From positions 16,539,262-16,603,261 of the forward strand of contig NC_058063.1 of the NCBI RefSeq assembly GCF_020085105.1: DNA of 64,000 nucleotides, in the 5' to 3' direction. Of this stretch, positions 14,933 through 43,504 are shown one piece after another; the stretch's first letter is position 1; every line of letters begins with the position of its first letter. The notes under the pieces are model-generated. The model searched no databases. It was not told the DNA's origin and saw only the letters and a list, made by a program, of their open reading frames with translations. The stretch is from Siniperca chuatsi. Taxonomy: Eukaryota > Chordata > Actinopteri > Centrarchiformes > Sinipercidae. The position numbers and the translations under genes were made by a program.

Positions 14933-14944
14933 GAAAGTGAAACT
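14933..14944 (+). promoter_or_regulatory. ISRE-like element of finTRIM A
   Basis: GAAAGTGAAACT fits the interferon-stimulated response element core GAAANNGAAAC exactly. It ends 38 bases before the ATG at 14983. Many fish TRIM genes are interferon- or virus-inducible, so a functional site is plausible. No start-site mapping is possible here. Confidence 0.6.
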
Positions 14945-14982
14945 TAAAAGTGTTCTTCTCTGCATGTGTGAAACTCATCAAC

Positions 14983-17900
14983 ATGGCGGAGCAGGAGCGC
15001 AGCGTGGATTTGGACCAGAATCAGTTTTGCTGTTCAGTATGTCTGGACCTGTTAAAAGAGCCAGTCACCATTCCCTGTGGACACAGTTACTGTAAAAGCT
15101 GTATTGAGGGATGCTGGGACCAGAGAGAGGAGAAGGGAACGTACAGCTGCCCTCAGTGCAGGGAGACCTTCAGTCCCAGGCCTGTTCTGAGGAGGAACAA
15201 CATGCTGGCTGAGGTGATGGCGGGAAACACTAGTGGTGTGGTAGAAACAGTATAGGGGTTGTGATAGTGTATAGAGAGTTACTTTTAGCCACTTATTCCA
15301 CAGTTATTAAAAGACAAATAGGCTTATATGTAGAGTTTAACTATAACATCTTGAAATTATCATTTTTATCTATCAAAATACTCAACTCTTTTTAATACTA
15401 TGGTGTCACTATTTTTGAATACACCTGTCAAAATACAGGATGTTACAACATGTATGAAGTGGCAATATAACTGAAATTCATAATTAGATCACTGATTAAA
15501 CGTTTTAATGCGACACCATGTGGCCATAAGCACTTAACATTTTGGTTAATAACACCTGAAATGTGTAGAGGCATATCCTACCTTTTTTCATAGCCACGTC
15601 TATTTCTATACAAACATTTTTAAACCACCATACCTACAAATTGTATTCAATCTCTATCAAATAATGTATTTGTGTGCTTGTTTTTTACATGTCATAAAGT
15701 TTTCCTGTAATTGGTGGTCCTGCAAAATATGAGGGTATTCCACCTGTAGGGCTGACTACAGTCACATGATACATTTAAATGGCTGTGAGTGGTCATGAGT
15801 CACTTGAAATTTGCACAGATATCCTTGTGCACAGCCTTGGTAGACGTGTACTCTGTGAATTCTGTTCTCATTCTACTTTTGTCCTGTGTGTCATATAATC
15901 TACAGTCTTTCTCACGACCTTCCTTTTTATCATCCCAGGTTGTTGAGATGTTAAAGAGAACAAGCACCCAGCAGGCTGCTCCCCCTGCTGCTGTGGCCTG
16001 TGCCGGCCCGGAAGATGTCGCCTGTGATTTCTGCTGTGGGAAACGAAACAAAGCCACGACGTCTTGCCTGACGTGTTTGGCATCTTACTGTCCAGCTCAC
16101 CTCGAGCCTCACTACAGTGTTCCGGTGTTGAAGAAGCACCAGCTGGTCTCGGCTACAATCCCCCTACAGGAAAAGATGTGTACAAAGCACAACAAGCTGA
16201 TGGAGGTCTACTGCCAGACAGACAAGAAGTGTATCTGCTATCTGTGCATTATAGATGAGCATAAAAGCCACCGTACAGTGTCAGCTGCAGCAGAGAGGGC
16301 TGAGAAAGAGGTAGAAACAAAAACACGGAAGAAATACTGAACGTGAAAAATAAATGTTTGTTACTTTAGAATTTTAGTCAAATCTTTATTACCAGTTGTA
16401 CTCAGTAGATCTGATGTGGTTGTAATAATCAAAAATGTAGTTTGTGTTAATGAAAGCACTAGAAATTAGTAATTTGCTTAAATTACCAACATTTTCTTTC
16501 AGGAACAGCTGATTGAGAAGCAAATGGAAGTCCAGGAGAGATTCCAGGAGAGAGAAAAGGAGCTGGATGAGCTGGTCCAGGCTCTGAAGGATTTCAAGGT
16601 ATGGACATTAAGTATTTGATCCTGTGTCTGTATTCCCCACTGACTATAGAAGAAATCTTGTCCAGGTTTTTTTTATCTGGTAAGTTGAGCTTATTAAGTG
16701 GTAGAAAAGGTTTCAATCGTAGTCATCTGGACACTGTTTAACTGATTCTGAAAACAGTGTCCAGGTGACTAAGATTTAAACCTTTTCTACGATGGAACAT
16801 TCCTGGACGAATGAGGGACTACGCCATCTCAAGTGGTATTACTGATATAAATAAAACCTTTTGCAGCATCATAAAAGTTTAATAACTTGACACTGAGGCC
16901 AGTCAATCACTCTGAGAGTGACAGCAGGCTCTAATCTGTGTTTTCAGTTTTGATACTGAGGCTACCTTTTTGTATATACTGGTATATGGACTGGGCCTTT
17001 AATTTTCTGAAGTAATTACCCTAATAACCACTACAGATGCATGCGTTTACTTGTTGATTCAATTTGTCATGACAATGTATTAGGGGCCCACTGAAAGTTC
17101 ATATGTACGGAATCCAGATTTTTGTGCTACACCACTGGCTATTATTAATTTTTGTCTGAGAGACTACTGACTTGCTGAGATATCGCCATCCAGAGCATCC
17201 ATAAAATCAACCAATGCCTATGCATAATATCATCATGTTTGAGTAACTAATACCACATTGTGTAAAAAAAATCTGTGGCATTTTGCCACAGAGAGTGCAT
17301 TTCAAAACAACAAAGCTTGATGTTTTTCTGTGTATGAACAGAGTTGTAGCCAGACTGCAGTGGAGACCAGTGATGAGATCTTTGATGAGCTGATCTCCTC
17401 CATAAAGAAAAAACACACTTTGGTGAAGGAGCTGATCAAAGCCCGGGAGAGGACTGCAGTCGCTCAGGCTGAAGAGCTGCAGCTGCAGATGGAGGAGGAG
17501 ATCACCAAGCTGAGGAGGAGAGACACCGAACTGGAACAGCTTTCTCATGTGGACGACCACATCCTTTTCATTCAGGTACCAGACACTTTTCAGTGTGGCA
17601 GCTTTTTCTATCTATCTTTTTTTTTTGTATTTCTATCACTTTGTATATTTTTTATGTTATATCAGTTCCACATGACTGAATAATCAGTGCCATACAGCCA
17701 AAGCACTCACCGTCTGTAACATCAGAAGCTTAAATATGTGACATCTGCAAGCCAAATTTCACAGTGCAACACATGATGACCATATTGGAAAATCAAGTTT
17801 GATTTTGTCCAAGCTTAACTGAAAGTTAACTGGTGGTTATTCTCTGGACCACAAAGTTGGACAAATGTATACAAAGTTTTGGTTGACTAGTCACATTGTT

Positions 17901-18951
17901 TTTTTTATGGAATTGACATCAACTAGATTTTATGTGTTTTTACATACAGTAAATATTATACTTGTAACTATTTGTTTTCTGGTCTCTGGCTTGTTGAATT
18001 CCCTCCAGACTTTCCAGTCCCTCTCCACCTCCTGTGAATCTCCAGACTTGCCTTCAGGTCGCGTTGTTCGTCCCCAAAGTTGGTTCAAAACTGTGACTGA
18101 CTGCTTGTCCAAGCTGAGGGCTGACATAGAGAGCCTCCTGCAGGTGACGGGGCCCAGGATCTCTGCCACAGGTACCTGATGATAAAAAATTTAAAAAAAT
18201 CCAGAATTCAAGTCCAGTGGTATTTAGGATTTTTTTTTTTTTTGTTAGTGTCTACTATAGATGTTGTGCTGCCACCTGTGCCAAAGACCAGAGAAGAGTT
18301 TTTAAGCTGTGAGTAAAACATTTAATTCTCTGCAGTTCCAAAATATGACAGTGAATTAATAATGAACTGAATAGCAAAAATTTTATGTTAATTATATATA
18401 TTTTTTCCTGCTTTGTTCTTCCATCAGATTGCTGTCCTCTAACACTGGATGAGAACTCAGTCCACAGATACTTGTCCCTTTCACATGAATTCCGGCGGGT
18501 GAAGAGTGAATACTACGAAAGATGTTATTCTGCTCACTCAGACAGGTTTATGAATGTCAGGCAGGTGTTGTGCAGAGAGGGTTTGTCAGAGCGTTGTTAC
18601 TGGGAGGTGAGTGGCAGTGGTTGTACTTGGTCAGTGGCAGTGTCATACAAAGACATCAGCAGATCATCGTCACATGACTCAGAGTATGGAAAGAATAACA
18701 AGTCGTGGCGTTTAGAGTGCTCCCCAGATGGTTACTCTTTCCAACACAACAACGGAAGAACAACAGTATCAGGCCCTCAATCCTCCAGGATCGGAGTGTT
18801 CCTGGATTATAAGGCAGGTACTCTGTCCTTTTATAGCATCTCTGACACGATGACTCTGCTCCACAAAGCACACGCCACCTTCACCCAGCCTCTCTATCCT
18901 GGCCTTGGGCTGAAGGGTGGTGGATATGCAGAACTGATTGACTACTTGTGA
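14983..18951 (+). CDS. finTRIM E3 ubiquitin ligase (RING, B-boxes, coiled coil, PRY-SPRY), intact
   Basis: The exons are 14983-15213, 15939-16310, 16503-16598, 17342-17575, 18009-18171, 18249-18308 and 18428-18951. All have AG/GT borders and consistent phases, giving 559 aa with stop TGA. Exon 1 (aa 1-77) is a C3HC4 RING with [15 protein letters not shown] and CPQC. Exon 2 holds two B-box zinc fingers ([24 protein letters not shown]). Exons 3 and 4 are coiled coil ([28 protein letters not shown]). The last exon is the PRY-SPRY/B30.2 domain ([45 protein letters not shown]), normally the target-binding surface. Domain order and length fit teleost finTRIMs, presumed cytoplasmic antiviral ligases. 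The start follows an ISRE-like motif. The C-terminus ([11 protein letters not shown]) differs from the sister SPRY copies (GDDDMSTSGSYAELIKLW). Confidence 0.9.
16696..16838. mobile_element. Foldback element in finTRIM A intron 3
   Basis: GTAGAAAAGGTTT (from 16701) pairs with its inverse ending at 16790. The arms are about 38 bp with a few mismatches. A tail, GGACGAATGAGGGACTACGC, follows the hairpin. The unit is bracketed by the 8-bp direct repeat AAGTGGTA (16696-16703 and 16831-16838). Relatives with much longer stems lie at 43591 and 61628. Confidence 0.65.
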
Positions 18952-19983
18952 TAAAATGTATATTGGGTTAATGTGTACCACTGTTGATCAGGCTGTAATT
19001 GGCCCTCCAGCATAACTGGATACCATATGATAGATGAGAGGATGTGATTTTACAAGAGTGAAAATGGTAAAACGAACGTTGAATCCCACGTGCCCAAATG
19101 TTAAGGTCTTGCTAAGTCAGAGTTTTGTTGTAGAGTTTTTGTGCCAATTTTCTCTGTAGCTTGTCAATGCTAACAAGAAATATTTTCTAAATAATAGCCA
19201 GTGTTTTTTTGCAGAAAATTTGTAAAGAAATATGCCTTAAGAGTATGGCATATCTGCAGTTTAGCACTTTGAGTAAGAAAACCTTCGAAAGCCTATATAA
19301 GTAGTTTCCTTATTGCTAAACAATTAAAACAACTAAGGTAAAAGGGTGTAGTGGTGTTAAACATTTTTTGTTAAATGGTTGGGATTTTTTCACTTTGGCT
19401 TCCCCAGTTGAAACAAACGTATTCTTCTTTGGGGTTTCCAGATATTTTTTTTTATTAGGCACCATGTGGGTCTGAAGGTTTGTCTGATTTAAAACACGAC
19501 ATTTGAAAATGTTTTTTAAAAAACATGTTCTTTTGAGTGTTATGGCTCTTAGTTATTATGGCCGATTGCTTTCACTTGTTCATTTGGATTGCCAACTGGA
19601 ATACTTCTTTGCATAAAAACGCTGCTCAGAAATGGTGACACTTCCTGTCATATAGAGTGGACATTTTCTGTTATTTACATTCTCCACCACATTGGATCAT
19701 TTATATGCAGAAGAGTATGTTTTGGTTATTTTCAGAGGAAAGAAATGAATAAATAAATACATACTCACAGCCCATTGTTTGATTGTAATTTGTCTCTTGG
19801 CAGAACATTTCTAGGCAGATGAGTCTAAACAGTCTTACGTGTATTATTTGCACACCAAATTTAATAAGTTCATCTTAGTGTATTTAGCAGTTTGTTGGTG
19901 TCTGACATCATGAAATAATTCACCCTGTTCTCTATAGGGAACTACATAGTGTCTCAGATGGCAAAACAATAATTTCAGACACT

Positions 19984-20240
19984 AGTGCTCCCCAAATGGT
20001 TACTCTTTCCAACACAACAGAAGCACACCAGTGTCAGGCCCTCAATCCTCCAGGATCGGAGTGTTCCTGGATTATAAGGCAGGTACTCTGTCCTTTTATA
20101 GCATCTCTGACACGATGACTCTGCTCCACAAAGCACACGCCACCTTCACCCAGCCTCTCTATCCTGGCCTTGGGCTGAAGGGTGATGATGATATGTCAAC
20201 TAGTGGATCTTATGCAGAACTGATCAAGTTATGGTATTAA
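19984..20240 (+). pseudogene. Orphan C-terminal half of a finTRIM SPRY exon
   Basis: The sequence begins abruptly at AGTGCTCCCCAAATGG, mid-SPRY. It encodes [20 protein letters not shown] onward to the end (GDDDMSTSGSYAELIKLWY, TAA). It resembles the SPRY of finTRIM copies B and C more than the adjacent intact gene. No upstream exons accompany it. It arose by tandem duplication or by unequal exchange between units. Confidence 0.8.
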
Positions 20241-22314: not shown

Positions 22315-25300
22315 ATGGGTGATATTTACCAATATCCCGTTTTCTTCGAGTGTCACAGCCTGCCGGAGCAGATTAAGAAAATAGAAAAGTATTTCCGTGT
22401 TCGCCGCAAATCAGGCGGAGGGGACTGCGGAGCGCTGACGCGTGTGGATGATAACGTCTACAGCCTTGCTTTCAAATATGAGGAAAGTAGGTCATAAAAC
22501 TCAACAACTCATGTTTTTAATTATTTAATATTGCGAACTGTCTTGTAATGTTGTTTTAAGACGTAGGCCTACTTATGTTTGAACTATAAGTAACTGCATA
22601 ATACATTGATTTATTTTATTTTGTTCGCCTACAAAACAAAATAATATGATCTGCTATTATCTGTCGAGGTGTAGGCCTGCCGGATTCACCGGGAATGTTG
22701 AGACTGGATCCTGAACAGCGAAATACTAATGTTAAACTTTCAGCTTCAAACTGAAGCTTAAATGCTGCCAGATGTCAAAGGAATACAGCAATAATAATCC
22801 ATAAAATGATTGACTGTACATAACTTGAGACAGTAAAATCAGCTGCTGTCAGTAGTGGAAGAAGTTCTCATATCTTTTACTTAAAGCAGCAATATCTCTG
22901 TAGAAATACTCTGTTACAAGTAAAACTCATTCAAGATTTCACTTAAGTAAAAGTGCAAATGTATGAACAGCAAACTGCACTTACAGTATTAAAGTAAAAG
23001 TAGGCCCACTTGTTTGGCAGAATTGTGCCTTTCAGAGAGTTATGTTACTATACTCCAGCTGTCAGATAGATGTAGTTGAGTGAAAAGTACAGTATATAAG
23101 TATAAAGCTGCATCAAATTGAAACACTCAAGTAAAGTAAAAGGGCCTCAGATTTGTACTTAAGTACAGTATTTGAGTAAATGTACTTAGTCACCTTCCAT
23201 CATTGGCTGTTGTCCATAAAACATGACATTGTGACTCATGTTGAAGTATTGTATTATGGTGCACACTGTGTGAGAGAGAGGTTTACACTCTGGGCACAAA
23301 CAGCAATAGTGTTCAGTTGCATAAATAGAGGGAGGAGAATGAGGAGAGAAGTAAAAAATAAGGAAAGACAGAGGATAAAAAAATCCTAAAGTTGCCCTAC
23401 ATTAGGTTTTATCATCTGCCCTTCCTTATTTTCTAACAAGTGACAGAAAAAGAGAGAAAGAGAGACTCATCTAATTATTTGAAATTCACAATAACTAATG
23501 TCACTGTTTCTGTCTTAGATCAGCAGGCAGTCCTTCAGAGATCTGAGCATATTGTGGATGGTCTGGTGATCACTGTCCGAGGCAGCCTGGAACCTCGCAC
23601 CCCCTCTCCCATCACCACCTCCACTGCAGCTCAGGTTAGCACAAAATGTCTGTCATTCAGTCAAGGTAGTGTATTTGCAATATACATTTATATTTCCTCA
23701 TTTCATGTAAACACTCTACATTGATGTATATGATCATATTATAATAGGAAGGGCTTTCTTCTGACAATTCAACTGTTTCTTTGCATTTTGCGAAAAAACT
23801 GAGGCAAGTAAACTGTTGTTGTCATTATTTGGATATCTCTTTTTTAACACAGAGCCCACAGGCCATTCCTGCCTCAACTCCTCCACCAAGTGGTGAAGAA
23901 TATGAACTACAACTTGATACTTACCTCCTTCGTTACCTAAAGGAATGTCCCAAGGCTGGGAAAGAACTAGAGAAAGAACTTGCCTCTGTGGCCTGCTCTG
24001 CCCAGCTTTACCCAGAGGAGGAGAGGGTTTTAGTCAGGAGTTTAGCTCAACCTGGTGCTGTAGATGAAGCTAGAAATCGGAAAGTCAAGGTAGGCAAAAT
24101 CTTTGATGGCTACCTGTGCCACTATGAGGTGGACCCTCACAAAGTTAAAGCTTTGCTTCAGTCCTGCAGCTCTGATCAGACCACAGATGAGGTGAAAGTG
24201 TACAGCGAGCCTGGGGTGGCTGTTGTGGTTGGGGAAAGTGCTCAGGTGAAGGCCAGGTTGATGGATGTAGAGGACAGGTCAGGTTTAAGTGAGACGCAAA
24301 CCAGCATTCGTCGACTGGGCAAGGCCAAGCTCCGCCTCCTCTGGAAAGAGATTGAGCACAGTTTGCGACGAGATTTTCCAGGAGTGAAGGTCACGCAGGG
24401 AGATGCAGGTCAGTTAGTTTTGGAAGGCACTGTGGAGGAGATTCTTAAGGCTGGAGATTGGATCTCTGATAAGGAGAATTTGGTGTTAGAAAGGACAGTT
24501 TCTGATAGGAGCCCACATTTTTTGGCCTTTCTAAGGAAGGCATACGGAGGTCCGGGGGTGCTAAGTGACTTTTTAGGGGTTGGTAACAAAGTGGAAATAG
24601 AGTTACGAGACACAGAGCTACGTTTCTTCACTCTCTCTGCTGATAAACTGGATGACACAGAGAAAAAACTGCAAGAAAAATTCAAGGAAGTCAAGATTGA
24701 TGTGCCTAACTGCTCTGCTGTGCCATCTGAGCTTCGGGAAAAGCTGAAGTCCAAGACAAATGAGATGAACCAAGGGCAACATAGGGCTCAGGTCGTGTTT
24801 GGCTCAGACAGCGCAGTGTGCTTACTGGGCCACACGAAAGAGGTTGAAGAGCTGAGTGAAGCTGTCATACAGTTTATTTTGGACCAGTCTAGCGTGCAAA
24901 GCAGGGTTGCACAGAATTTGGCATCTTTAAGTTTACGTGAAGTAAACACAACAGTGGCTAGCTACAGCCTTCGTGACGGGCTCCAGGTGCTGGTGTGTCA
25001 GGGTGACATCACCAAACAGGATGCTGATGCCCTGGTGAACGCTGCCAATGAAGATCTGGACCACTGTGGAGGTGTTGCTGCTGCCCTGAGTAAAGCAGGC
25101 GGTCCTGAAGTACAGAGTGAAAGCAGTGACTTAGTAAAGTATATTGGGAAAGTCCATACAGGTGAAGTGGTAGTGACCACAGGGGGGAACTTAAACTGCA
25201 AGAAACTGCTGCATGCTGTTGGGCCTGTTGGTGGAGAAGCAGGTGGCAGAGAAAGGATCTTACTCAAAAAAACTGTCCATTCTGCTCTGAATTTAGCAGA

Positions 25301-28300
25301 AATCATGGAGTTCCAGTCTATAGCCATGCCCTGTATCAGCTCAGGTGTGTTTGGTGTTCCTGTCACTGTGTGCTCTGAGGCTATTGTAACTGCTGTTAAA
25401 GAGTTTGGCAGTCAGGGAGGGCGAAGTCTGAGCAGAATAATCCTGATTGATAACAGAGGAGAGGTGGTGAGGGCCATGCAGGAAGCATGTGACAGACTTC
25501 TCCAAGTGACACAATCCGGAAACGGTGCACCAAGTGATTTGGGATTCCAGATGGATGTTGCCCAAGATGACATAGAAAAAGGAGCCACTGCTGGAGCTCC
25601 TGGAGATGGTGTCAGTCTAGAGATCATTCAGGGAACCATCGAGACCCAGCAGGTGAGAAACCTCTCTGAGATTTTAAGAAAATGTATATGTATATTTTTC
25701 TTTTAAGAAAAAAACTTCAGGACAGGCGCGAACCACAGGGAGATGGAGGAGGGGGGCACCAATTCATTTGATTATTTCAAGCAATTATTACGTAGGCTAT
25801 ATCTTGTATTGCCTAATGGTGCCTATTGTAGTTGTGCGTCATCTTAAATTTAAATATTTAATCATTATGATTATTATGATTGATGATCAGTAGGCTGTTT
25901 TGGTGCCCCCTCCGGCACTTGGTGCCCTACGCACAGCACTGGATGCGCATGTACGTAGCGGTGGCACTGCCTACACTCAATACTGTGTCTGAATCCATCC
26001 TGTGTAGACACAGATGGAGCACTGAAGCTGCTTCTGCTCTGCTAACGCGTGTTTTTGCTACATGGGCTGCGTTAACACTGTGTTAGAGTTTGGCATTAAG
26101 CATGGCCACAATATTATAGGCCAGTGTGGTAACCCACTGTTATGAGGGGGAAGGTGCAATGCATACATTTACAGTACTGCATGGCTAAAGCCACTGAAAT
26201 GCAAAAACCATGGAAGCAGTGGAAATGCAGCATAATACAATTACAGTTACTGGCATGGCAATCACCTGACTCTGCAGTTCCCTTTAGCTCTATGGAGCTA
26301 TTCAGTGTCTTGTAGCTTGTTGTTTTGGCAACTTTTCTGTCTTTTAGTTTATTCTCACCGCTGTCATCAGCATTGCTTCAATTCAAGTTTTCAGCCAAAA
26401 CCTCGAACAACCCACTGTATCATACCTGCTCAGCACCAAACTGAGCTAAAAGGACAGTGAATGTCAGACTTATATTCACCAAGACTCCCAATGAATGCTT
26501 ATGTTGTTCCATGTCTGCTGCATGTGGAAATAAGCAAGTGCATGCTAACAAGTTCACCATATCAACCTGATAGTCTGTCAGTGTTGTGTTTTAAAGATTG
26601 TTTCTGCTGTGCAAGTGGTCAGTTATTGCAAGATACCTGTGTTTTGAGTCTTTATAACTTTTTATGCCTGGTACTTCAGGTTACACATTTCTGAAATCTA
26701 GATTAAAATCACCCAATTTAGGAAGACGTGGATGTGAAAATTAAGTCTATAAGAAGACGTAAAACTTATTTCTTCCTGTGGGTGTCAGCTGATTTAAACT
26801 GTGGAGTGTTCAGCCCCCACCACAGCTCCTGCTCTCCTTCTAGGTGGATGCTCTGGTATCGCCCATGGTTGGCCATGATCCTCTCTCTACCTGTGTTGGA
26901 AACACTTTGTCCAAGATGGTTGGATCCCAGCTGACTGCAGGATTTAGAAAGGAAGCAGGAGAAGCAACGCTGCCTGGTGACACAGTCCTGGTGGAGGGCT
27001 TGCCTGGACTTCCATCTAATGCAGTGTTCTTCGTCAACCTCGTTCCCTGGGATGATGACCAGGATGGAATTGCAGTCCAGGTGAGATAGTGGAGGAGTGC
27101 TTGTTTCACTTGTGGCTTACCTTCTTCTTAGTATTTCCTATGTCTAGCCTTAAAAATCATTGTATTCTGACCTTTTCCAGGTTCTGAGACTGGGCATCAA
27201 CACAATCCTAACTTCCTGTGAGAATAGAGGGTTTGGATCTGTTGCTCTCCCTGTGCTCGGGGCTGGGATTGCCCTGCATTTTCCTGACAGCGTGGTAGCC
27301 AGGGTTCTACTGGAGGAAGTTCATAAGTTTGACCTCAACCGAGACAGCAGAACACCATTGCTGGTCCGCATCGTCATCCACCCCAGTGACGAAGAGTCTA
27401 GTGAGGTAATGGAAAATGCATTGTGCACAGACGTGTCCAAATTTCTTGGCTGATGATAATGAGTGTGATTCATTTAGTGTGTCTTCGTACCGGCATTCAA
27501 AAATAACACTATTTTATAAACTCCAAATCTATTTATGGTCAATTATTGCTGAAGTAATTAACCAGTATAATCAGTTGTATTTATAAACATCAGCTTACAT
27601 TTTTTCTTTCTTAACTAGATGACTATATGCTGGAATTGGTATTAAACCATATGCTTACTTGTCTCTGCAGGTGTTCACATCTGTCCAGGAAGCTTTCCAA
27701 CTGAAAAGATTCACAAAAGATGTTCACCAACCAGACCAAGGTGGGTATAGTTATTATATGACAGCAAATAATTGGAAATAAGTCCTGTGGCAGCCATTTT
27801 TCATGTTTTTAAGTGCATTTGTTACTTATTTACTCTCAGATGTATTTGATTTGGCTATACTGCAGTAAAGTGTAAATTGTCACCCAGCATCAAAAAAGTA
27901 TTTGTTGCTTGCATGAATAACAATTTCTTTTCTGGAACAATTCAGGTGATTTATTCTGTCAGTGTTATAAAATGTGACTGCTGTAATGACTAATTCACCA
28001 TGTTATAGATGAATATGATATAGAACTTTTTTAATATCTCAGTTGATTGTTTCTTTTATTTTCAACCAAATTAGCCACTGATATTTCCCCTAGATATGAG
28101 CACGCTAATGCTGTCATTCAGGAGTGCTTCTTTATCTGAGCCTTTATCTGTTTCCCCAAAAAATGATAAAACTGATCTTGAAAGCTAACAGCTAAAGAAA
28201 GCAAACAAGAAAAAGAAAATGTACTTAACAGAGTCATTCTTCTCTTCTAGTGTCAACTCCAAAGAGGATCGTCCTGCTGGGAAAAACTGGATCTGGGAAA

Positions 28301-29326
28301 AGCAACCTAGCTAACACCATATCTGGAGAGAAATTATTGTTTACCACAAACCATTCTCCCAACTCTGGAACACGAAAATGTCAAACAGAAACCAAATCTG
28401 TCAATGGAAGAAGCATCACTTTGATCGACACTCCTGGTTTCTTTGATGCAGATAGATCTGAGGAGGACATGAAGCCTGAGATAGTGAGATGTATCACAGA
28501 GTGCGCCCCTGGGCCTCATGCTTTTCTCATTGTGCTTAAAGTGGAGAAATTCACAGAGCAGGAGCAGGCTGTCATCACTAAAATCTGCCAGTATTTCTCT
28601 GAAGATGCTCTAAAATATGCTGTAATTGTCTTCACTCATGGTGACCAGCTCCCGAAAGGAATGAAAATTGAGGAGTTTGTCAGTCAGAATAAGAATCTGA
28701 GTGACCTGGTGAAGAAGTGCGGAGGCCGGTGCCACGTCATTGATAATAAATACTGGAAGAACAAAGTGCAGAACAACTACAGGAGCAACCAGTTCCAGGT
28801 GGAGGACCTACTCAACACAATAGACAAGATGGTGATGGAAAACAATGGAGGCTACTATGTCAATAAGATGTTACAAGCAGTGGAGAAAGAAATACAGAGA
28901 GAGGAAGAGCACATAAGACAGACATCAGACAACATGCCAGTGGAAGAGATCAGGAAACAGGCTAAAACCAGAGTGTCTGAGAGGTTTCTGATCCAACTGG
29001 CAGGTACTGCAACAGGAGCATTGTTAGGAGCTTTTTTTGGTGTGGCAGCAATGGTTGGATTAGTTATCACAGCTGTACAGAACGTTAAAGCACTCGCACA
29101 AAGAATTCCAGCACTAGGAGGAGCATACGCTGCTGCAGCAGCAGGAGGAGCAGAAGTAGCAGTCGCTGTTGGAGTCGTGGCAGGTGTGACTGCAGCGTCA
29201 GCAGGAGCAGTAATAGGTGGTGGTATTGGACATGATGCAGCTGAGGGAGCAGAAACACCATGGGAGGCAGTAGAGATGGCAGCTAATGCTGTCATCAACA
29301 AAGGAAAAGCTACATTAAAGTTGTAG
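22315..29326 (+). CDS. RRM-KH-macro-macro-AIG1 (PARP14-like/GIMAP) fusion protein, copy A, intact 1,231 aa
   Basis: The exons are 22315-22486, 23519-23634, 23853-25652, 26844-27080, 27181-27405, 27671-27740 and 28251-29326. Summed length is 3,696 nt with no stop until TAG. The N-terminus (IKKIEKYFRVRRKSGGGDC) matches the PARP14 RRM start. A KH-like region follows. Macrodomain 1 (about aa 470-650) keeps the ADP-ribose loops VNAANEDLDHCGG and SSGVFGVP. Macrodomain 2 (about 684-870) starts SLEIIQGTIETQQVDALVSP and has a divergent loop. Exon 6 ends ...HQPDQ plus G in phase 1. Exon 7 begins TG, giving VSTPKRIVLLGKTGSGKS (P-loop at 884-891). DTPGFFD, THGDQL, RCHVIDNK and an Ala/Gly-rich hydrophobic tail follow. 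No WWE or PARP catalytic domain is seen. The alternative is two genes: reading through the exon-6 donor gives about 14 more residues, then TAA. However, no first GIMAP exon lies in the 510-bp intron. Confidence 0.8.
22850..23190. repeat. 'ACTTAAGTAAAAGTGC' dispersed repeat in intron 1, copy A
   Basis: It opens GTAGTGGAAGAAGTTCTCAT and contains TTTACTTAAAGCAGCAATAT, ending near GTAAATGTACTTAGTCACC. It is shared with copy B (36740-37085), so it predates that duplication. A partly decayed relative lies at 55080-55200 in copy C. Confidence 0.55.
25746..25914. repeat. Possible small TIR element in intron 3, copies A and B
   Basis: GGAGG(G)GGGGCACCA at 25747-25761 is mirrored by TGGTGCCCCCTCC at 25901-25913. 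The same is present in copy B (about 39908-40075) and absent from copy C. It may be part of a larger DNA-transposon remnant. No clear target duplication was found. Confidence 0.4.
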
Positions 29327-29426: not shown

Positions 29427-29542
29427 TTTTCACAAAAATGGCTTCTTTGACTCCTCTTTCAAACCAACTCTTCTCTCTAAGATTCTAAGTAGAGAGAAGA
29501 GTTGGTTTGAAAGAGGAGTCAAAGAAGCCATTTTTGTGAAAT
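29427..29542. repeat. Perfect inverted repeat, 52-bp arms, 10-bp loop
   Basis: Bases 29427-29479 are the exact inverse of 29490-29542 or nearly so at the ends, around the loop AGATTCTAAG. It lies 100 bp past the stop of fusion copy A. It replaces about 700 bp that follow the stop in copies B and C. The right arm runs directly into AATATTCACTCTCC, which is shared by all units. Confidence 0.8.
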
Positions 29543-30996
29543 ATTCACTCTCCTTTTATCTCTGTTTTTGTCTCCTCCAACTCTGGAGGGAAAGATCTGC
29601 TCTGTTGGTGCTAAATGCTCCACTGTGTTCACCAGCTAATCGCTAACTTTGTCTGTCTGCCGTTTGGTGTTGAGCAAGTAGTGGACTACAGAGATTTTTG
29701 CAGAAAACAACAGCTGCCTGATGAGGGTAGAAACAAGGTTGATAAGAGTTTGCTGGCCAAAAAACCAAAACAATGAGCTGAAAGAGGTTAAAAAGGCTCC
29801 ATAGAGTGGAAGGGAATTGTAGGACAGGTGAAAATTCTATGTGGGTTTGACAACTTTCACAAAATGCATAGTGGATCCATTGTAAATTAAAAAAATATAT
29901 AAAACTGATTAGCAGCTTTAAAGTGCAGAATGTTTGGGGCAGTGCCCTGAAAAAGATGGAGGGATACTCATTTGTAAAACACTTGTAAATTATGTAGTAA
30001 TCATTCTAATATAAGAACAGTGGGCTCCTGCAGTCTTTATATATTGGTAATGTATAAACAAAATGTATAGATAAATTAATAAATAAACAATGTTTAATTG
30101 TCTGACAGTGGTTGTTTGAATGTGGACTATCCAGAACTTCAAGGTGTTCAATTATGTACTTTTTTTCTACTGACCTCTTTCTCTATACTAAGCCATTTGT
30201 TATACACCTGTTTTTCAACAATAAAATAACTGATTGCTAACAAGTCTTCTCATATGTCCATAATTTTCATTAGTGGGCTGTATGTCTGACTAGTTTACCT
30301 CATTACTATGGGATTCCTACTGCACCTGCAAGGTCTGATCAACAGGGGGCTCCCTAGAGCAGGAAAATGCTTTGTTTAATCAGATACCACTGGATTCTTT
30401 CACATCCTGTAAAGAGGAGAAGCATCAAGAGCAGTAGCAATGCTAGTATTTATGGGACCTTGAATTGAGATTTATCATACAATGGATGTAGTTATGGGTG
30501 ATTTTGTAATGTAAGACCTTTTCTGGTTACACAGGGAGGTCAGAGGTCAAGTTACAGTGCTGATATGTATGGATAGGGTGTCTCAGTTAAAGCTGCATCT
30601 GAAAACTTGGATGTTTGTTGGGTATTTGATGACAAAGAACATTTTGTTGTGGATACACTGTACCTGAATCACAAAGTTATTATTTAATTTAGCAGTCCCC
30701 AGCTTCGCTTTCACAGTTTAAGGATCAACATTGGTGTTTTCACTGATTTAGCTCAGGAGTTTAAATGGTTTTAGCCATTTGTCCAGCATGTTTCATAGTT
30801 GTTGTTTTTTTGTTACTTTTGTACAACTTCAAAATAAATAAAATACAGACTCCACATGAAGCTCATAGCCTTTGCCCTTGCAGGGATGAATCAAGCTGCA
30901 TTGAATTAAATCTAAATCTAAATGTACCTTGTTTTCCAAGTATTTCAGAGAAAATGAATCTCAGCAACACTCAAGTATTTTTACAAAACAAAAGTT
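29543..30996. other. Spacer between units A and B
   Basis: The stretch 29610-29910 is a dispersed repeat (GTTGATAAGAGTTTGCTGGC ... ATGCATAGTGGATCCATTG) also found at 44290-44600 and 62340-62660. AATAAA signals near 30070 could end the fusion-A transcript. From about 30410 the sequence matches 44745-45110 and 62805-63180 closely and leads into the next finTRIM. No gene is recognised. Confidence 0.55.
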
Positions 30997-33771
30997 GAGC
31001 TGGACCAGGATCAGTTCTGCTGTTCAGTATGTCTAGATCTGCCAAATGAACCAGTTACTATTAACTGTGGACACAGTTACTGCAGAGGCTGTATTGAGGG
31101 ATGCTGGCACCAGAGAGAGGACAAGGGAACATACGGCTGCCCTCAGTGCAGGGAGACCTTCAGTCCCAGGCCTGTTCTGAGGAGGAACAACATGCTGGCT
31201 GAGGTGAAGGGTGAATTATAGTGTATTGACAGGAGAGGTGTTTGTATCTGCTCTTACCTGTACTTAACAGATAGTATTCACCTAGATTGTTATATTCCCT
31301 ACTTTGTCCTGTAAATATACTTAAACCACTGTAGTCCTTTCTTCCTGTTTTTGCGTTGTCCCCTTGTGCCTCCACTCACTGAATCCAAATGTCTTCTTTG
31401 TGTTAAAATACAAACTGTAATAGAAAGAAGGAGTGGTTTTAGTCGAAACAGTAATGGTGGTAAGTTACTTTCTATTGAGATAAACGTGACATTTTTGGTG
31501 TCAATACAGGAATGATTTAACATTGCAAGGTAGGGCCTTTTAGCACATTTTCACTTCTATTTTCCCATAAATTAATAAAACAAACTTTCACATTTATATT
31601 TTGATGCAGATTAAAAATGTGTACTCATTTTTTATCATAATAACACAAATATAAGATTTGTGGGAGGTCATTTAAAATCTATTGCCATTACATACTGCAG
31701 TTTGTCCAACAGAGAGCACTGACTAGTTTATTTATAACTATAAAATGTTCTTCTCAGTACATATCTTGGTCACAATTCTTTAAAGAAACAAAAAAGGTTT
31801 ATTTGTCAACATGCTTTTTTTAAAAACTGGTAATCTGTTTTTTAATTCAAATATCTATTGGTATCAGCCTCAAAAATCCAGTATGCTCAGGCTATGGTAT
31901 GTGCTTTCTGAAGAGAGCTAATTTCTAACTTCCTATCATCCTTTAGCTTGTTGAGAATCTGAAGAAGTCAAGCACCCAGCAGGCTGCTCCCCCTGCTGCT
32001 GTGGCCTGTGCCGGCCCGGCAGATGTCGCCTGTGATTTCTGCTGTTGGAAACGAAACAAAGCCACGACGTCTTGCCTGACGTGTTTGGCATCTTATTGTC
32101 CAGCTCACCTCGAGCCTCACTACAGTGTTCCTGTGTTGAAGAAGCACCAGCTGGTCTCGGCTACAGTCCCCCTACAGGAAAAGATGTGTACGAAGCACAA
32201 CAAGCTGATGGAGGTCTACTGTCAGACAGACAAGAAGTGTATCTGCTATCTGTGCATTATAGATGAGCATAAAAGCCACCGTACAGTGTCAGCTGCAGCA
32301 GAGAGGGCTGAAGAACAGGTAGAAACAGCAGAACTAGTGAACGTGAAACTGTAGACTGTTAAAATAAACAGGTCTGCAGTCAAACACATTGACATGTTTG
32401 TTACTTTTGAATTTTAGCCCAATCTTTAATTGGTACCAGTACCAGTTGTACTCAGTAGATCAGATGTGATTTGCAATAATAGAAAACTAAATAACTTTAT
32501 TAATAAAACTGTTCACAATGAGTCATTTGCTGTAGCACCAACTATTTTTTTTCAGAAACAGCTAATTGTCATAAGAAAGTCCAGGAGAGAGAAAAGGAGC
32601 TGGATGAGCTGGTCCAGGCGCTGAAGGATTTCAAGATGTGGACATTCAGTATTTGATCCTGTGTCTGTATTCCCCACTGACTATAGAAGAAGTCTTGTCC
32701 AGGTTTTGATATCTGGCAAGGTGTGCTCATAAACCCAATTGTATCAACAACAAAAAATCTGAACTTGCTCAACCTTTTCCACAGAGAATGTTATTTTAAA
32801 AAGAAAAATCTTTGTTTTTCTGTTTTTCATTTTTTAGAATTTCTATCACTTTGTATAATTCTTAAGTTATGTCAGTTCCACATGACTGAAGATTCAGTAC
32901 TGTACAGCCAAAGTACTCACCGTCTGTAAATGTAGAAGTTTAAACATGCAAAACTCGGCAACAAAGCACAGCTGAATGCATTGCCGAAAGGTGACATCTG
33001 CTGGCCAGATTTGTCAGTGCGACACATGATGACCATATTGGAATATCAAGTTTAATTTTGTAACAACTTAACTGAAAGTTAACTGGTGGTTATTCTTTGG
33101 TCCACAAAGTGTTGATTGCATTGTCACATTGTGTTTTTTTTATGGAATTGACATCAACTAGATTTTATGTGTTTTTTACATACAGTAAATATTATACTTG
33201 TAACTATTTGTTTTCTGGTCTCTGGCTTGTTGAATTCCCTCCAGACTTTCCAGTCCCTCTCCACCTCCTGTGAATCTCCAGACTTGCCTTCAGGTCGCGT
33301 TGTTCGTCCCCAAAGTTGGTTCAAAACTGTGACTGACTGCTTGTCCAAGCTGAGGGCTGACATAGAGAGCCTCCTGCAGGTCACAGGGCAGTGTTGTGCA
33401 GAGAGGGTTTGTCAGAGCGTCGTTACTGGGGGTCAGTGGCAGTGTCATACAAAGACATCAGCAGATCATCGTCACATGACTCAGAGTATGGAAAGAATAA
33501 CAAGTCGTGGAGTTTAGAGTGCTCCCCAAATGGTTAGTCTTTCCAACACAACAGAAGCACAACAGTGTCAGGCCTTCAATCCTCCAGGATCGGAGTGTTC
33601 CTGGATTATAAGGCAGGTACTCTGTCCTTTTATAGCATCTCTGACACGATGACTCTGCTCCACAAAGCACACGCCACCTTCACCCAGCCTCTCTATCCTG
33701 GCCTTGGGCTGAAGGGTGATGATGATATGTCAACTAGTGGATCTTATGCAGAACTGATCAAGTTATGGTAA
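30997..33771 (+). pseudogene. finTRIM copy B, broken
   Basis: The RING exon (30997-31203; [19 protein letters not shown]) is open but has lost its ATG segment. An in-frame start is not available upstream. The B-box exon 31947-32318 is full length (372 nt) and open, with a Gly-to-Trp change after CDFCC. The coiled-coil exon 32556-32635 lacks 16 nt and its GT donor is now AT. Exon 4 is absent. Exon 5 begins at 33245 and is fused by a deletion near 33386 straight into mid-SPRY sequence, removing exon 6. The SPRY has a TAG near 33535. The remaining SPRY end ([18 protein letters not shown] to KLW, TAA) is readable. It cannot make a TRIM protein. Confidence 0.88.
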
Positions 33772-36204
33772 TAAAATGTATATTGGGTTAATGTGTGCCA
33801 CTGTTGATCAGGCTGTAATTGGCCCTCCAGTATAACTGGATACCATATGATAGATGAGAGGATGTGATTTTACAAGAGTGAAAATGGTAAAACGAACGTT
33901 GAATCCCACGTGCCCAAATGTTAAGGTCTTGCTAAGTCAGATTTTTGTTGTAGAGTTTTTGTGCCAATTTTCTCTGTAGCTTGTCAGCGCTAACAAGAAA
34001 TGTTTTCTAAATAGTCCTGGCTCTTAGTTATTATGGCCAATTGCTTTCACTTGTTCATTTGGATTGCCAACTGGAATACTACTTTGCATAAAAAGGCTGC
34101 TCAGAAATGGTGACACTTCCTGTCATATAGAGTGGACATTTTCCGTTATTTACATTCTCCACCACATTGGATCATTTATATGCAGAAGAGTATGTTTTGA
34201 TTATTTTCAGAGGAAAGAAAAGAATAAATAAATACATACTCACAGCCCATTGTTTGATTGTAATTTGTCTCTTGGCAGAACATTTCTAGGCAGATGAGTC
34301 TAAACAGTCTTACGTGTATTATTTGCACACCAAATTTAATAAGTTCATCTTTTGTATCTTAGTGTATTTAGCAGTTTGTTGGTGTCTGAAATCCTGAAAT
34401 AATTCACCCTGTTGTCTATAAGGAACTACATAGTGTCTCAGATGGCAAAACAATAATTTCAGACACCACTCTGGTCAGTCCTTACTATTATTGATGCTAC
34501 TTTGTATTTTGAGTTGATGTGAGTCTATTAAATAGGATTTAATAATTCTTACTAGACATTCAGACGACAGCACAAATTGGAGACACACTGTATAGTGGAG
34601 TATGCACATGGATAGTGAATGGTTTTGGACACAACCAGTGTCTTTGTCGGGGGTCACAGTCAGCTACAGCCCAGCACTCCTGCAGCTAATGGAGATATAC
34701 TGTGTTGCTCTGATGCTGCATGGTGAAGAACAGTGTCTGAAAACGTAGCAGGGTGCATGCTTGCCAACACAGGAGCGTGACATCTGCTCTTCCATTCTCA
34801 GTTTACTCACCCTCCCTGTGCTGAGATACCCTCAGTTGCCTGTTTACACCTAAAACTAATACAGTCCTGTAATAAGTCCTACCTTCATGAACAGGTGTTG
34901 ATTCAACTGTATGGTCAGTGTGGAGGCAGTAGTTTGTGGTGCTGTTGAGCTGTACTGTGTGATACTGAGAGGTGTTTCTATTATTTACGCAACCCTCGGT
35001 GATGTAAATGGGGTGAACAAAATAGAAAATATTTCAGGTTTTAATTTACCTAAAGATTGTGTTTGAACACACATTAGAAGGTATCTGTATTCCACAATGT
35101 AGTCTAATCCCACTTTAGCCTATTCCCTATTGAATGAATAAACAACTCAGATCTGAGTTACTGCCCGGTTGCAAGGACACACCCATAGCACTAGTCACAA
35201 CTCAAGCAGCCAGGTGTGGTTCCATGAAGATTTGTCTTGACGCACAAGGACATTATTTGAATAATAAATTTGCTTCAGTGTAAAAGAAAGATCAACATTT
35301 TGACACATTATTACCCCAGCTGTAAAACATGTTTAAATACAATGGATTGTTATATGCTGACAGTACTTTTTACACAGCACTACCCCTCCAAAATCCTCAA
35401 GTATCTGGATTTCTTGGAGTTATTGGACTTGTATACACTAGGTGTTTGTTCATACGAGGCATAACAGGCTTTTACGCCTCTCTGGGGTCTAACTGACTCC
35501 ATACACAAGTAACATCATATGTAGGACAACATAGTGTACATTTCTTTGTCTGTGAATGACTTTTTGGTAAACAAAAGGAATACTTTTTTCTTCATGCAGA
35601 GTCCATAAAACACATAAAACATGAATTTTTTGTTGTAATAACAATGCTTTATGGTGATTTCTGTATTTTGTCATCTTATTGATGTGTATGTCTGCCAGTT
35701 TGTGAATGGTTAGCACTTCAATACTCATCCACATATCTTGTTTTAATAAGGCTAAAATAAAAGAAAAGCAAATATTTAAAGGAAAAACGTTGGTTATAAA
35801 TGGGGAAATAGCCTATTCGTATTTTTTGCACATACAGCATTGGTGTTTGGGACCCCAAACAATGAGAAAGTACAAGGACAAATAGTAAGTCAACATTTAA
35901 ATTAAATTGTGTGCATTATTTTGTATTGCTTGGAGTAGGCGAGTGTCAGTGTTGTTTTCATGTTTGCTGCTTGGCCACAAAACAATTCGAATACAATAAT
36001 GTGTTTCTTCTATTTTAGGATGAACAGTTATGTAATATTGCATGGATGGCACCTCCCTGTTGAACAGTCACCATTGTGATATTTGACTTTTTCACCACTA
36101 GGGGCGCAGTTCGTCCAGCAGGATCAGATGGGCGACGCTGTAAACACACTGCGCTCTTCACACCAGATAGTTGGCTTCATTCCTCTCTCCACAAGAGCTA
36201 AACG
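33772..36204. other. Spacer between finTRIM B and fusion copy B
   Basis: 33772-34905 is the finTRIM 3' flank shared with units A and C, here with the LTR site empty. 34905-35680 is present in B and partly in C (49710 onward) but missing from A. There the flank jumps from ACAGGTGT directly to CATCTTATTGATGTG. 35890-36204 is the conserved upstream region of the fusion gene, including AGGGGCGCAGTTCGTCCAGC. No gene is recognised. Confidence 0.55.
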
Positions 36205-39200
36205 ATGGGTGATATTTACCAATATCCCGTTTTCTTCGAGTGTCACAGCCTGCTCGCGGAGCAGATTAAGAAAATAGAAAAGTATTTCCGTGTTCGCCGC
36301 AAATCAGGCGGAGGGGACTGCGGAGCGCTGACGCGTGTGGATGATAACGTCTACAGCCTTGCTTTCAAATATGAGGAAAGTAGGTCATAAAACTCAACAA
36401 CTCATGTTTTTAATTATTTAATATTGCGAATTGCCTTATAATGTTGTTTTAAGACGTAGGCCTACTTATGTTTGAACTATAAGTAACTGCATAATACATT
36501 GATTTATTTCATTTTGTTCGCCTACAAAACAAAATAATATTATCTGCTATTATCTGTCGAGGTGTAGGCCTGCCGGATTCACCGGGAATGTTGAGACTGG
36601 ATCCTGAACAGCAAAATACTAATGTTAAACTTTCAGCTTCAAACTGAAGCTTAAATGCTGCCAGATGTCAAAGGAATACAGCAATAATAATCCATAAGCT
36701 GATTGACTGTACATAACTTGAGACAGTAAAATCAGCTGCTGTCAGTAGTGGAAGAAGTTCTCATATCTTTTACTTAAAGCAGCAATATCTCTGTAGAAAT
36801 ACTCTGTTACAAGTAAAACTCATTCAAGATTTCACTTAAGTAAAAGTGCAAATGTATGAACAGCAAACTACACTTACAGTATTAAAGTAAAAGTAGGCCC
36901 ACTTGTTTGGCAGAATTGTGCCTTTCAGAGAGTTATGTTACTATACTCCAGCTGTCAGATAGATGTAGTTGAGTGAAAAGTACAGTATATAAGTATAAAG
37001 CTGCATCAAATTGAAACACTCAAGTGAAGTAAAAGTGCCTCAGATTTGTACTTAAGTACAGTATTTGAGTAAATGTACTTAGTTACTTTCCATCATTGGC
37101 TGTTGTCCATAAAACATGACATTGTGACTCATGTTGAAGTATTGTATTATGGTGCACACTGTGTGAGAGAGAGGTTTACACTCTGGGCACAAACAGCAAT
37201 AGTGTTCAGTTGCATAAATAGAGGGAGGAGAATGAGAAGTAAAAAATAAGGAAAGACAGAGGATAAAAAATCCTAATGTTGCCCTACATTAGGTTTTATC
37301 ATCTGCTCTTCCTTATTTTCTAACATCAAGTGACAGAGAAAAGAGAGAAAGAGAGTCTCATCTATCCATCCATCCATCTTCTACCGCTTGGTCCCGTTAG
37401 GGGTCGCGGGTGACTGGAGCCTATCCCAGTGACTTTGGGCCTTAGGCAGGGTACACCCTGGACAGTGGCCAACTCGTCGCAGGGCTAACACAGACACAGA
37501 CAAGGACAGACAACCATTCACTCTCACATTCATTCAATACGGGCAATTTAGAGTTATCAATTAACCTACACATGCATGTCTTTGGACGGTGGGAGGAAGC
37601 CGGAGAACCCGGAGAGAACCCACGGTAACACGGGGAGGACATGCAGACTCCACCCAGAGAGATCGTGTGATGTTGGTCTGGTCCGGGAATCGAACCCACG
37701 ATCTCCTTATTGGGAGGCAGGAGCTTTAGCCGCTCTGCCACCGTGCACCCCCGAGTCTCATCTAATTATTTGAAATTCACAATAACTAATGTCACTGTTT
37801 CTGTCTTAGATCAGCAGGCAGTCCTTCAGAGATCTGAGCATGTTGTGGATGGTCTGGTGATCACTGTCCGAGGCAGCCTGGAACCTCGCACCCCCTCTCC
37901 CATCACCACCTCCACTGCAGCTCAGGTTAGGTTTCTTTGCTTTTTGCGAAAAAGAACTGAGGCAAGTAAACTGTTGTTGTCATTATTTGGATATCTCTTT
38001 TTTTAACACAGCGTGCACAGGCCATTCCTGCCTCAACTCCTCCACCAAGTGGTGAAGAATATGAACTACAACTTGATTCTTACCTCCTTCGTTACCTAAA
38101 GGAATGTCCCAAGGCTGGGAAAGAACTAGAGAAAGAACTCGCCTCTGTGGCCTGCTCTGCCCAGCTTTACCCAGAGGAGGAGAGGGTTTTAGTCAGGAGT
38201 TTAGCTCAACCTGGTGCTGTAGATGAAGCTAGAAATTGGAAAGTCAAGGTAGACAAAATCTTTGATGGCTACCTGTGCCACTATGAGGTGTTCCCTCACA
38301 AAGTTAAAGCTTTGCTTCAGTCCTGCAGCTCTGATCAGACCACAGATGAGGTGAAAGTGTACAGCGAGCCTGGGGTGGCTGTTGTGGTTGGGGAAAGTGC
38401 TCAGGTGAAGGCCAGGTTGATGGATGTAGAGGACAGGTCAGGTTTAAGTGAGACGCAAACCAGCATTCGTCGACTGGGCAAGGCCAAGCTCCGCCTCCTC
38501 TGGAAAGAGATTGAGCACAGTTTGCGACGAGATTTTCCAGGAGTGAAGGTCACGCAGGGAGATGCAGGTCAGTTAGTTTTGGAAGGCTCTGTGGAGGACA
38601 TTCTTAAGGCTGGAGATTGGATCTCTGATAAGGAGAATTTGGTGTTAGAAAGGACAGTTTCTGATAGGAGCCCACATTTTTTGGCCTTTCTAAGGAAGGC
38701 ATACGGAGGTCCGGGGGTGCTAAGTGACTTTTTAGGGGTTGGTAACAAAGTGGAAATAGAGTTACGAGACACAGAGCTACGTTTCTTCACACTCTCTGCT
38801 GATAAACTGGATGACACAGAGAAAAAACTGCAAGAAAAATTCAAGGAAGTCAAGATGGATGTGCCTAACTGCTCTGCTGTGCCATCTGAGCTTCGGGAAA
38901 AGCTGAAGTCCAAGACAAATGAGATGAACCAAGGGCAACATAGGGCTCAGGTCGTGTTTGGCTCAGACAGCGCAGTGTGCTTACTGGGCCACACGAAAAA
39001 GAGGTTGAAGAGCTGAGTGAAGCTGTCATACAGTTTATTTTGGACCAGTCTAGCGTGCAAAGCAGGGTTGCACAGAATTTGGCATCTTTAAGTTTACGTG
39101 AAGTAAACACAACAGTGGCTAGCTACAGCCTTCGTGACGGGCTCCAGGTGCTGGTGTGTCAGGGTGACATCACCAAACAGGATGCTGATGCCCTGGTGAA

Positions 39201-42200: not shown

Positions 42201-43504
42201 GAACTTTTTTAATATCTCAGTTTATTGTTTCTTTTATTTTCAACCAAATTAGCCACTGATATTTCCCCTAGATATGAGCACGCTAATGCTGTCATTCAGG
42301 AGTGCTTCTTTATCTGAGCCTTTATCTGTTTCCCAAAAAAATGACAAAACTACTCTTGAAATCTAACAGCTAAAGAAAGCAAACAAGAAAAAGAAAATGT
42401 ACTTAACAGAGTCATTCTTCTCTTCTAGTGTCAACTCCAAAGAGGATCGTCCTGCTGGGAAAAACTGGATCTGGGAAAAGCAACCTAGCTAACACCATAT
42501 TGGGAGAGAAATTGTTTACCACAAACCATTCTCCCAACTCTGGAACACGAAAATGTCAAGCAGAAACCAAATCTGTCAATGGAAGAAGCATCACTTTGAT
42601 CGACACTCCTGGTTTCTTTGATGCAGATAGATCTGAGGAGGACATGAAGCCTGAGATAGTGAGCTGTATCACAGAGTGCGCCCCTGGGCCTCATGCTTTT
42701 CTCATTGTGCTTAAAGTGGAGAAATTCACAGAGCAGGAGCAGGCTGTCATCACTAAAATCTGCCAGTATTTCTCTGAAGATGCTCTAAAATATGCTGTAA
42801 TTGTCTTCACTCATGGTGACCAGCTCCCGAAAGGAATGAAAATTGAGGAGTTTGTCAGTCAGAATAAGAATCTGAGTGACCTGGTGAAGAAGTGCGGAGG
42901 CCGGTGCCACGTCATTGATAATAAATACTGGAAGAACAAAGTGCAGAACAACTACAGGAGCAACCAGTTCCAGGTGGAGGACCTACTCAACACAATAGAC
43001 AAGATGGTGATGGAAAACAATGGAGGCTACTATGTCAATAAGATGTTACAAGCAGTGGAGAAAGAAATACAGAGAGAGGAAGAGCACATAAGACAGACAT
43101 CAGACAACATGCCAGTGGAAGAGATCAGGAAACAGGCTAAAACCAGAGTGTCTGAGAGGTTTCTGATCCAACTGGCAGGTACTGCAACAGGAGCATTGTT
43201 AGGAGCTTTTTTTGGTGTGGCAGAAATGGTTGGATTAGTTATCAAAGCTCTGCAGAACGTTAAAACGTTAATGACACTCGCACAAAGAATTCCAGCACTA
43301 GGAGAAACATGCGCTGCTGCAGCAGCAGGAGGAGCAGAAGTAGCAGTCGCTGTTGGAGTCGTGGCAGGTGTGACTGCAGCGGCAGCAGGAGCAGTAATAG
43401 GTGGTGGTATTGGACATGATGCAGCTGAGGGAGCAGAAACACCATGGGAGGCAGTAGAGATGGCAGCTAATGCTGTCATCAACAAAGGAAAAGCTACATT
43501 ATAG
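36205..43504 (+). pseudogene. Macro-GIMAP fusion copy B, two frameshifts, GTPase exon intact
   Basis: The exons are 36205-36379, 37810-37925, 38012-39813, 41005-41241, 41360-41583, 41849-41918 and 42429-43504. The splice sites and phases match copy A. Exon 1 has one extra codon (CHSLLAEQ). In exon 3 an A run at 38996-39000 carries two extra bases. The frame then closes at TGA 39014-39016, just before macrodomain 1. Exon 5 lacks one C near 41429 (GCTCTCCTG against GCTCTCCCTG). The two shifts do not compensate. The GTPase exon is fully open (P-loop GKTGSGKS, DTPGFFD, THGDQL) but has no start of its own. As written, only the RRM/KH part could be made. Expression of the GTPase would need another promoter or exon. 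Assembly indels are a real alternative. Confidence 0.82.
37364..37752 (-). mobile_element. tRNA-derived SINE in intron 1 of copy B
   Basis: On the minus strand the element begins GGGGGTGCACGGTGGCAGAG. It has a B-box-like GGGTTCGATTCC and ends in an ATGGATGGATGG tail. The 11-bp direct repeat GAGTCTCATCT flanks it (37353-37363, 37753-37763). The equivalent sites in copies A (23463) and C (55425) are empty, so it inserted after duplication. Confidence 0.8.

Follow-up and report, generated by a model that had tools for sequence, protein, structure and literature searches.

A PARP14-like protein ending in a GIMAP GTPase, encoded in a tandem array of the fish Siniperca chuatsi

Gene structure at the locus

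The window analysed here (the whole 64-kb stretch of DNA, taken from contig NC_058063.1 of Siniperca chuatsi) is a tandem array in which TRIM-like exons alternate with copies of a single gene at 22, 36 and 52-61 kb. The first copy, LOC122870585, spans 22315-29326 on the forward strand and joins a PARP14-like front half to a GTPase of the AIG1/GIMAP family (below: the fusion). Its seven exons join into 3,696 nt that encode 1,231 amino acids with a single, terminal stop. All six introns are of the GT..AG type and the joins are in frame (phases 1, 0, 0, 0, 0 and 1). A previous reading, made from the sequence only, had proposed exactly this open frame, and it is confirmed: the conceptual product is identical, letter for letter across all 1,231 residues, to database protein P0003 (uncharacterized LOC122870585, Siniperca chuatsi). 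The parts of the gene, with the evidence for each assignment, are:

22315-22486, + strand: exon 1, start ATG and first part of the RRM (splicing in frame, Pfam)
23519-23634, + strand: exon 2, end of the RRM (splicing in frame, Pfam)
23853-25652, + strand: exon 3, 1800 nt, KH-like region and macrodomain 1 with NAAN at residue 492, HCGGVA at 500 and SSGVFG at 592 (Pfam, motifs)
26844-27080, + strand: exon 4, macrodomain 2 (predicted fold of the Perca orthologue)
27181-27405, + strand: exon 5, macrodomain 2 (predicted fold of the Perca orthologue)
27671-27740, + strand: exon 6, linker resembling that of catalytic PARP14-like paralogues and last piece in common with them (paralogue comparison)
27741-28250, + strand: intron 6, the fusion point (sequence scan)
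28251-29326, + strand: exon 7, AIG1/GIMAP GTPase with P-loop GKTGSGKS at residue 884, Ala/Gly-rich hydrophobic tail and stop (Pfam, motifs)

All three tandem copies have the same splice donor and the same acceptor at intron 6. The sequence-only reading had raised two ways in which the join could fail, a transcript ending after exon 6 and a separate first exon for the GTPase. As to the first, a scan for AATAAA or ATTAAA finds no poly(A) signal inside intron 6 (one ATTAAA lies in intron 5, at 27641). As to the second, there are 13 candidate first exons running from ATG to GT with a fitting phase; the 8 that begin within intron 6 are at most 23 codons long, which makes a separate start there appear unlikely. 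Moreover, in the translated frame of the GTPase exon the first Met falls 3' of the P-loop, so that exon 7 alone is unable to encode the GTPase. The locus would be one gene rather than two, and in view of the relatives, of P0088 and of the catalytic paralogue described below an artefactual fusion is very unlikely.

About 100 bases past the stop codon lies a perfect inverted repeat (29428-29541, 52-nt arms, 10-nt gap), which may be a 3' untranslated hairpin, a small transposon or an assembly artefact.

Domains of the predicted protein

Pfam places RRM_PARP14_1 at residues 19-71 (38.1 bits, cut-off 27), Macro in two stretches (125.2 bits, the best at 491-604) and AIG1 at 878-1091 (189.8 bits, cut-off 27). 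In the KH-like part the PARP14 KH models score under their cut-offs, and in the tail hydropathy peaks at 2.39 (1126-1152) and 2.08 (1173-1200). The proposed order of RRM, KH-like region, macro 1, macro 2, AIG1 and hydrophobic tail therefore held, the KH-like region below cut-off and the tail by hydropathy. The GTPase carries GKTGSGKS at 884 and DTPG at 933. The active site of hydrolytic macrodomains (PARP14 MD1 type) consists of Asn, Gly-Gly and Phe, according to PMC10470015, and macro 1 of the fusion has these residues (NAAN at 492, HCGG at 500 and F596 opposite PARP14 F926).

Relatives and a probable transcript

A protein search with the fusion scored 397 proteins, and, as in each protein search, the best 120 were analysed. 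In 94 of these 120 Macro and AIG1 occur in one protein, so that the combination looked for among fish relatives is indeed found; 58 of the 120 show the exact order of RRM, KH region, macro 1, macro 2 and GTPase, and the remaining 26 are GTPase-only matches. Gene models of many spiny-rayed fish species among the matches listed have a similar linker and junction.

Probable transcript evidence comes from a relative, P0088 (1,248 aa), which spans the junction. Its contig measures 4,301 nt and leaves about 550 nt of non-coding sequence; the introns of the Siniperca gene add up to 3.3 kb. This is too short for ordinary introns, and P0088 is therefore probably a spliced mRNA across the fusion junction, as judged from the size of its contig and not from its letters. 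Two catalytic PARP14-like proteins, P0140 (1,613 aa, 5,257 nt) and P0179 (1,603 aa, 4,942 nt), behave like P0088; all three bear the tag lgn, which probably marks sequencing runs assembled by Logan. For P0079 (979 aa) the longest contig, of 4,568 nt, has about 1.6 kb to spare and is weak transcript evidence.

In four database models (P0001, P0011, P0014 and P0121) the fusion bears additional GIMAP or TRIM parts. These are probably merged neighbour genes, the alternative being longer natural fusions.

The catalytic paralogue and the origin of the junction

Siniperca also has a catalytic PARP14-like protein, P0125, with an RRM, three Macro stretches, WWE (22.8 bits, cut-off 21.1) and PARP. It probably lies on the same chromosome as P0003 (both come with a 24,671,900-nt contig). 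The two proteins agree through the linker up to the exon 6/7 join and diverge there: P0125 reads ...RGFTNDANPDQAS, followed by FYRHVS and macro 3, and the fusion reads ...KRFTKDVHQPDQVST, followed by the GTPase. The GIMAP GTPase therefore stands where PARP14 has its catalytic end. The sequence-only reading had it replace the catalytic domain; this is supported by the point of divergence, but the replacement is wider, as macro 3 and WWE are gone too. By Pfam, the fusion has two Macro stretches against three in P0125, macrodomain 3 being absent, and neither WWE nor the PARP catalytic domain (PF00644) appears in its list at E 0.1. When the catalytic end of P0125 (residues 990-1611) is compared with the window, only two macro 1 places match, at 26-27% identity.

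A plausible course is that a duplicate of the catalytic PARP14-like gene lost its 3' exons (macro 3, WWE and PARP), and that the single coding exon of a GIMAP GTPase was captured and spliced after the macro 2 linker exon. We infer such a capture by exon shuffling from the parent's protein rather than from its exon ends.

Probable gene conversion and phylogeny

Trees were built from hand-picked subsets of 218 proteins (65 to 71 rows for the macrodomains, 107 and 75 for the GTPase). P0088 and Siganus were left out of the macro 1 tree, and Gouania P0214 was left out of the macro 2 tree testing Genypterus. The macro 2 tree splits 33 fusions (32 percomorph, one labelled moray eel) from 33 catalytic proteins plus the Myripristis fusion, with a support of 100/99 from bootstraps that had not settled; the same holds for the bootstraps of the free GTPase tree and of the macro 1 and Genypterus trees. 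In the macro 1 tree the types are mixed, with 17 type changes (13 forced by strong branches) against a shuffled mean of about 22. As few as 4 and 7 of 500 shuffles reach a count as low as observed, so some clustering by type remains. Since fusion and catalytic types mix, this tree is unusable for the origin.

For 30 species, chosen for having both types listed, the fusion was compared with the catalytic protein of the same species. Median identity is highest in macro 1 (86%), followed by the KH region (79%), macro 2 (59%) and the RRM (54%, measurable in 28 species); exceptions are macro 1 of Mastacembelus (27%, a missing domain) and five species in which KH falls below macro 2. In 20 of the 30 species the KH region is 75-99% identical (rounded) between the two types. 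Because macro 1 evolves slowly, a control asked whether each fusion is closer to its own catalytic protein than to every other species' fusion. The own catalytic protein is nearest in 16 of 24 species for KH and 16 of 29 for macro 1, and in 1 of 28 for the RRM and 1 of 30 for macro 2, both single cases being Myripristis. In Siniperca the KH region and macro 1 lie on the same 1,800-nt exon. The natural reading of these comparisons is that exon 3 has repeatedly been exchanged with the catalytic paralogue by gene conversion or crossing-over, though not in every species.

Myripristis (Holocentriformes) stands outside Percomorphaceae, and the macro 2 of its fusions P0187 and P0201 groups with the Myripristis catalytic gene. 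Owing to Myripristis, a single macro 2 clade of all fusions is rejected (p 0.002). In Genypterus (Ophidiiformes) macro 2 is path-nearest to catalytic rows, and a clade with the non-Myripristis fusions is not rejected (p 0.533). For the GTPase a clade of all fusions is borderline (p 0.047) and one excluding Myripristis is not rejected (p 0.216). The GTPase trees do not decide the origin: the free tree does not hold the fusions together (three changes), and in another GTPase tree 33 of 34 fusion GTPases cluster with two other rows (support 91).

It might accordingly be asked whether the same PARP14 linker was joined to a GIMAP exon twice, once in percomorphs and once in Myripristis, and we put the chance of this only slightly below even. 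The macro 2 position of P0187, the rejected macro 2 clade and the borderline GTPase clade speak for two captures, as does the fact that Myripristis alone has its own catalytic protein nearest in each of the four regions, even in the RRM and macro 2. Nonetheless, the same trees would result if the whole front half had been converted in Myripristis, and the position of the junction is the same. The question concerns origin only; either answer is compatible with the function proposed below.

The fusion labelled moray eel, P0053 (Gymnothorax javanicus, Elopomorpha; 190-Mb contig), nests among percomorph fusions, possibly through contamination, mislabelling or transfer between fishes.

Proposed function and alternatives

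PARP14 is a hub of ADP-ribosylation linked to interferon, and the GIMAP family consists of immune GTPases whose trigger is unclear. With moderate confidence, we regard the fusion as a non-catalytic PARP14-like paralogue whose 3' end was replaced by a GIMAP exon and which probably acts as an ADP-ribose-reading GTPase effector. Its observed support consists of the gene structure, the probable transcript of a relative, the fish gene models, the catalytic paralogue, the conserved macro 1 and P-loop residues, and the predicted folds. In such a protein the RRM/KH part would bind RNA, and the macrodomains would bind mono-ADP-ribose laid down by the catalytic paralogue, which macro 1 could also remove. 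Binding to targets would concentrate the GIMAP domain and lead to GTP binding and dimerisation, after which it might act on membranes via the hydrophobic tail, as an effector against viruses or other intracellular pathogens.

Several observations weigh against this proposal. The full-length predicted model has a pTM of 0.35 and 4d86 (macro 1 and 2 together) fits it with an rmsd of 22.8, so the relative placement of the domains is not fixed by the model. The relatives are mostly computer gene models. The macro 1 match is missing in 21 of 103 fusion models and the macro 1 of P0088 is without NAAN; hence ADP-ribose removal cannot be required of every member. The reading frame is broken in copies 2 and 3 of the window, either genuinely or through assembly errors. 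Finally, the interferon element GAAANNGAAA has no match in the 7 kb upstream of the start codon. In the window it matches 10 times against a shuffled mean of 4.4, three of these matches being one intron 6 site that recurs in each copy, and interferon control of the fusion gene thus seems unsupported by this motif.

A fuller version, which we put forward tentatively and with clearly less confidence, would see an as yet undescribed family of immune proteins in fish. Exon capture, perhaps on two occasions (in percomorphs and in Myripristis), would have put a membrane GIMAP GTPase in place of the PARP14 enzyme end and made an ADP-ribose-gated GTPase out of an ADP-ribose writer. Here the exon for KH and macro 1 would be overwritten time and again by gene conversion from the catalytic paralogue and form a targeting module shared by writer and GTPase, with RRM, macro 2 and GTPase remaining separate.

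An unlikely alternative, though one to be taken seriously, is a regulator resembling PARP9, which would chiefly bind or compete for the ADP-ribosylated targets of the catalytic paralogue and use its GIMAP part just as a membrane anchor or dimerising handle, with no need for GTP turnover. The KH and macro 1 exon, which in many species the fusion shares with the catalytic gene, would suit this role. There is also a precedent: in the excerpted text of the two sources, PARP9 is described as an inactive duplicate of PARP14 (PMC13224862) with an active macro 1 (PMC10499325). However, the P-loop pattern is present in all 94 fusion models and DTPGFxD in 85 of them, which suggests that nucleotide binding matters.

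That the family is decaying, has little function itself and persists as a substrate for recombination, is improbable. The frame is broken in two of the three full copies of the window, two disrupted GTPase exons stand alone nearby and macro 1 is often missing, but copy 1 and P0006 have open frames of 1,231 amino acids, and 102 of 103 fusion models keep the macro 2 match beside the GTPase.

Least probable is that gene predictors merged two neighbours, a PARP14-like gene cut short after exon 6 and a separate GIMAP gene: they do seem to merge cluster neighbours (the four models above) and intron 6 offers a 23-codon candidate first exon of fitting phase, yet that intron is without poly(A) signal, linker and junction are similar in models of many species, the P0088 contig is too short for ordinary introns, and order and splice sites are kept in three tandem copies.

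Relation to known systems

The fusion shares with PARP14 (BAL2) and the fish catalytic paralogues the RRM, the KH-like region, macro 1, macro 2 and the linker; unlike them it has no match to macro 3, WWE or the PARP catalytic domain, and has an AIG1 GTPase and a hydrophobic tail. PARP9 retains an inactive PARP-like domain, whereas the 3' end of the fusion comes from another family. What the fusion has in common with PARP9 (BAL1), as far as the excerpts of PMC13224862 and PMC10499325 go, is the pattern of a PARP14 duplicate without ADP-ribosylation activity and with an active-type macro 1. In contrast to other GIMAP/AIG1 GTPases (GIMAP7, fish GIMAP8-like), its GTPase sits on a PARP14-type N-terminus of about 870 aa. 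Multi-domain AIG1 proteins have been described in the snail Biomphalaria glabrata, where AIG1 is joined to death, kinase and ARM fold domains; a term search of the main text finds no PARP, and neither of the two words with 'macro' in it denotes a macrodomain (PMC7053062).

In the open-access literature, with most subscription journals and bioRxiv outside its scope, no paper among the matches listed points by title or start of abstract to a fish macro-GIMAP protein. The searched text of a PARP14 review from 2026 (PMC13224862) contains no word starting with fish, teleost or GTPase (a search that would not catch zebrafish). Each part is known, and public gene models already contain the combination, either with no name or under the names PARP14-like or GIMAP. 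It follows that fish database proteins named PARP14-like include non-enzymes. A natural PARP14-GIMAP fusion suggests that both act on one pathway and makes it possible to test directly if a GIMAP GTPase can be switched by the recognition of ADP-ribose; in addition, one exon appears to be exchanged between the fusion and catalytic gene types.

Other features of the array

Besides the first copy, the window contains:

36205-43501, + strand: tandem copy 2, all 7 exons matched; frame broken near 38992-39001 (exon 3) and near 41428-41461 (exon 5)
52116-61541, + strand: tandem copy 3, all 7 exons matched; frame broken near 56644-56680 and 57489 (exon 3) and near 61102-61422 (exon 7)
9592-10574, + strand: GTPase exon on its own, the first part matching exon 7 at 90%; frame broken near 10068
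1096-1841, + strand: lone GIMAP GTPase exon, closer to GIMAP8-like GTPases; frame break near 1512
14941-20237, 30958-34000 and 45900-49300: TRIM-type exons between the fusion copies (first two units by Pfam, third by DNA similarity)

No match to exons 1-6 is found near the lone GTPase exon at 9592-10574, which in the GTPase tree is closest to the fusion's own GTPase. P0006 (1,231 aa) represents a further intact copy, on a contig of the same size as that of P0003. Pfam recognizes RING, B-box and PRY/SPRY in the first TRIM unit and RING and B-box in the second, the rest being assigned by DNA similarity. An interferon-element-like sequence, GAAAGTGAAA, lies at 14933-14942, where the first TRIM RING reading frame starts. 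The segment 52001-54000, mostly intron 1 of copy 3, is of unusual composition, with a GC content of 0.486 and an AT skew of -0.256.
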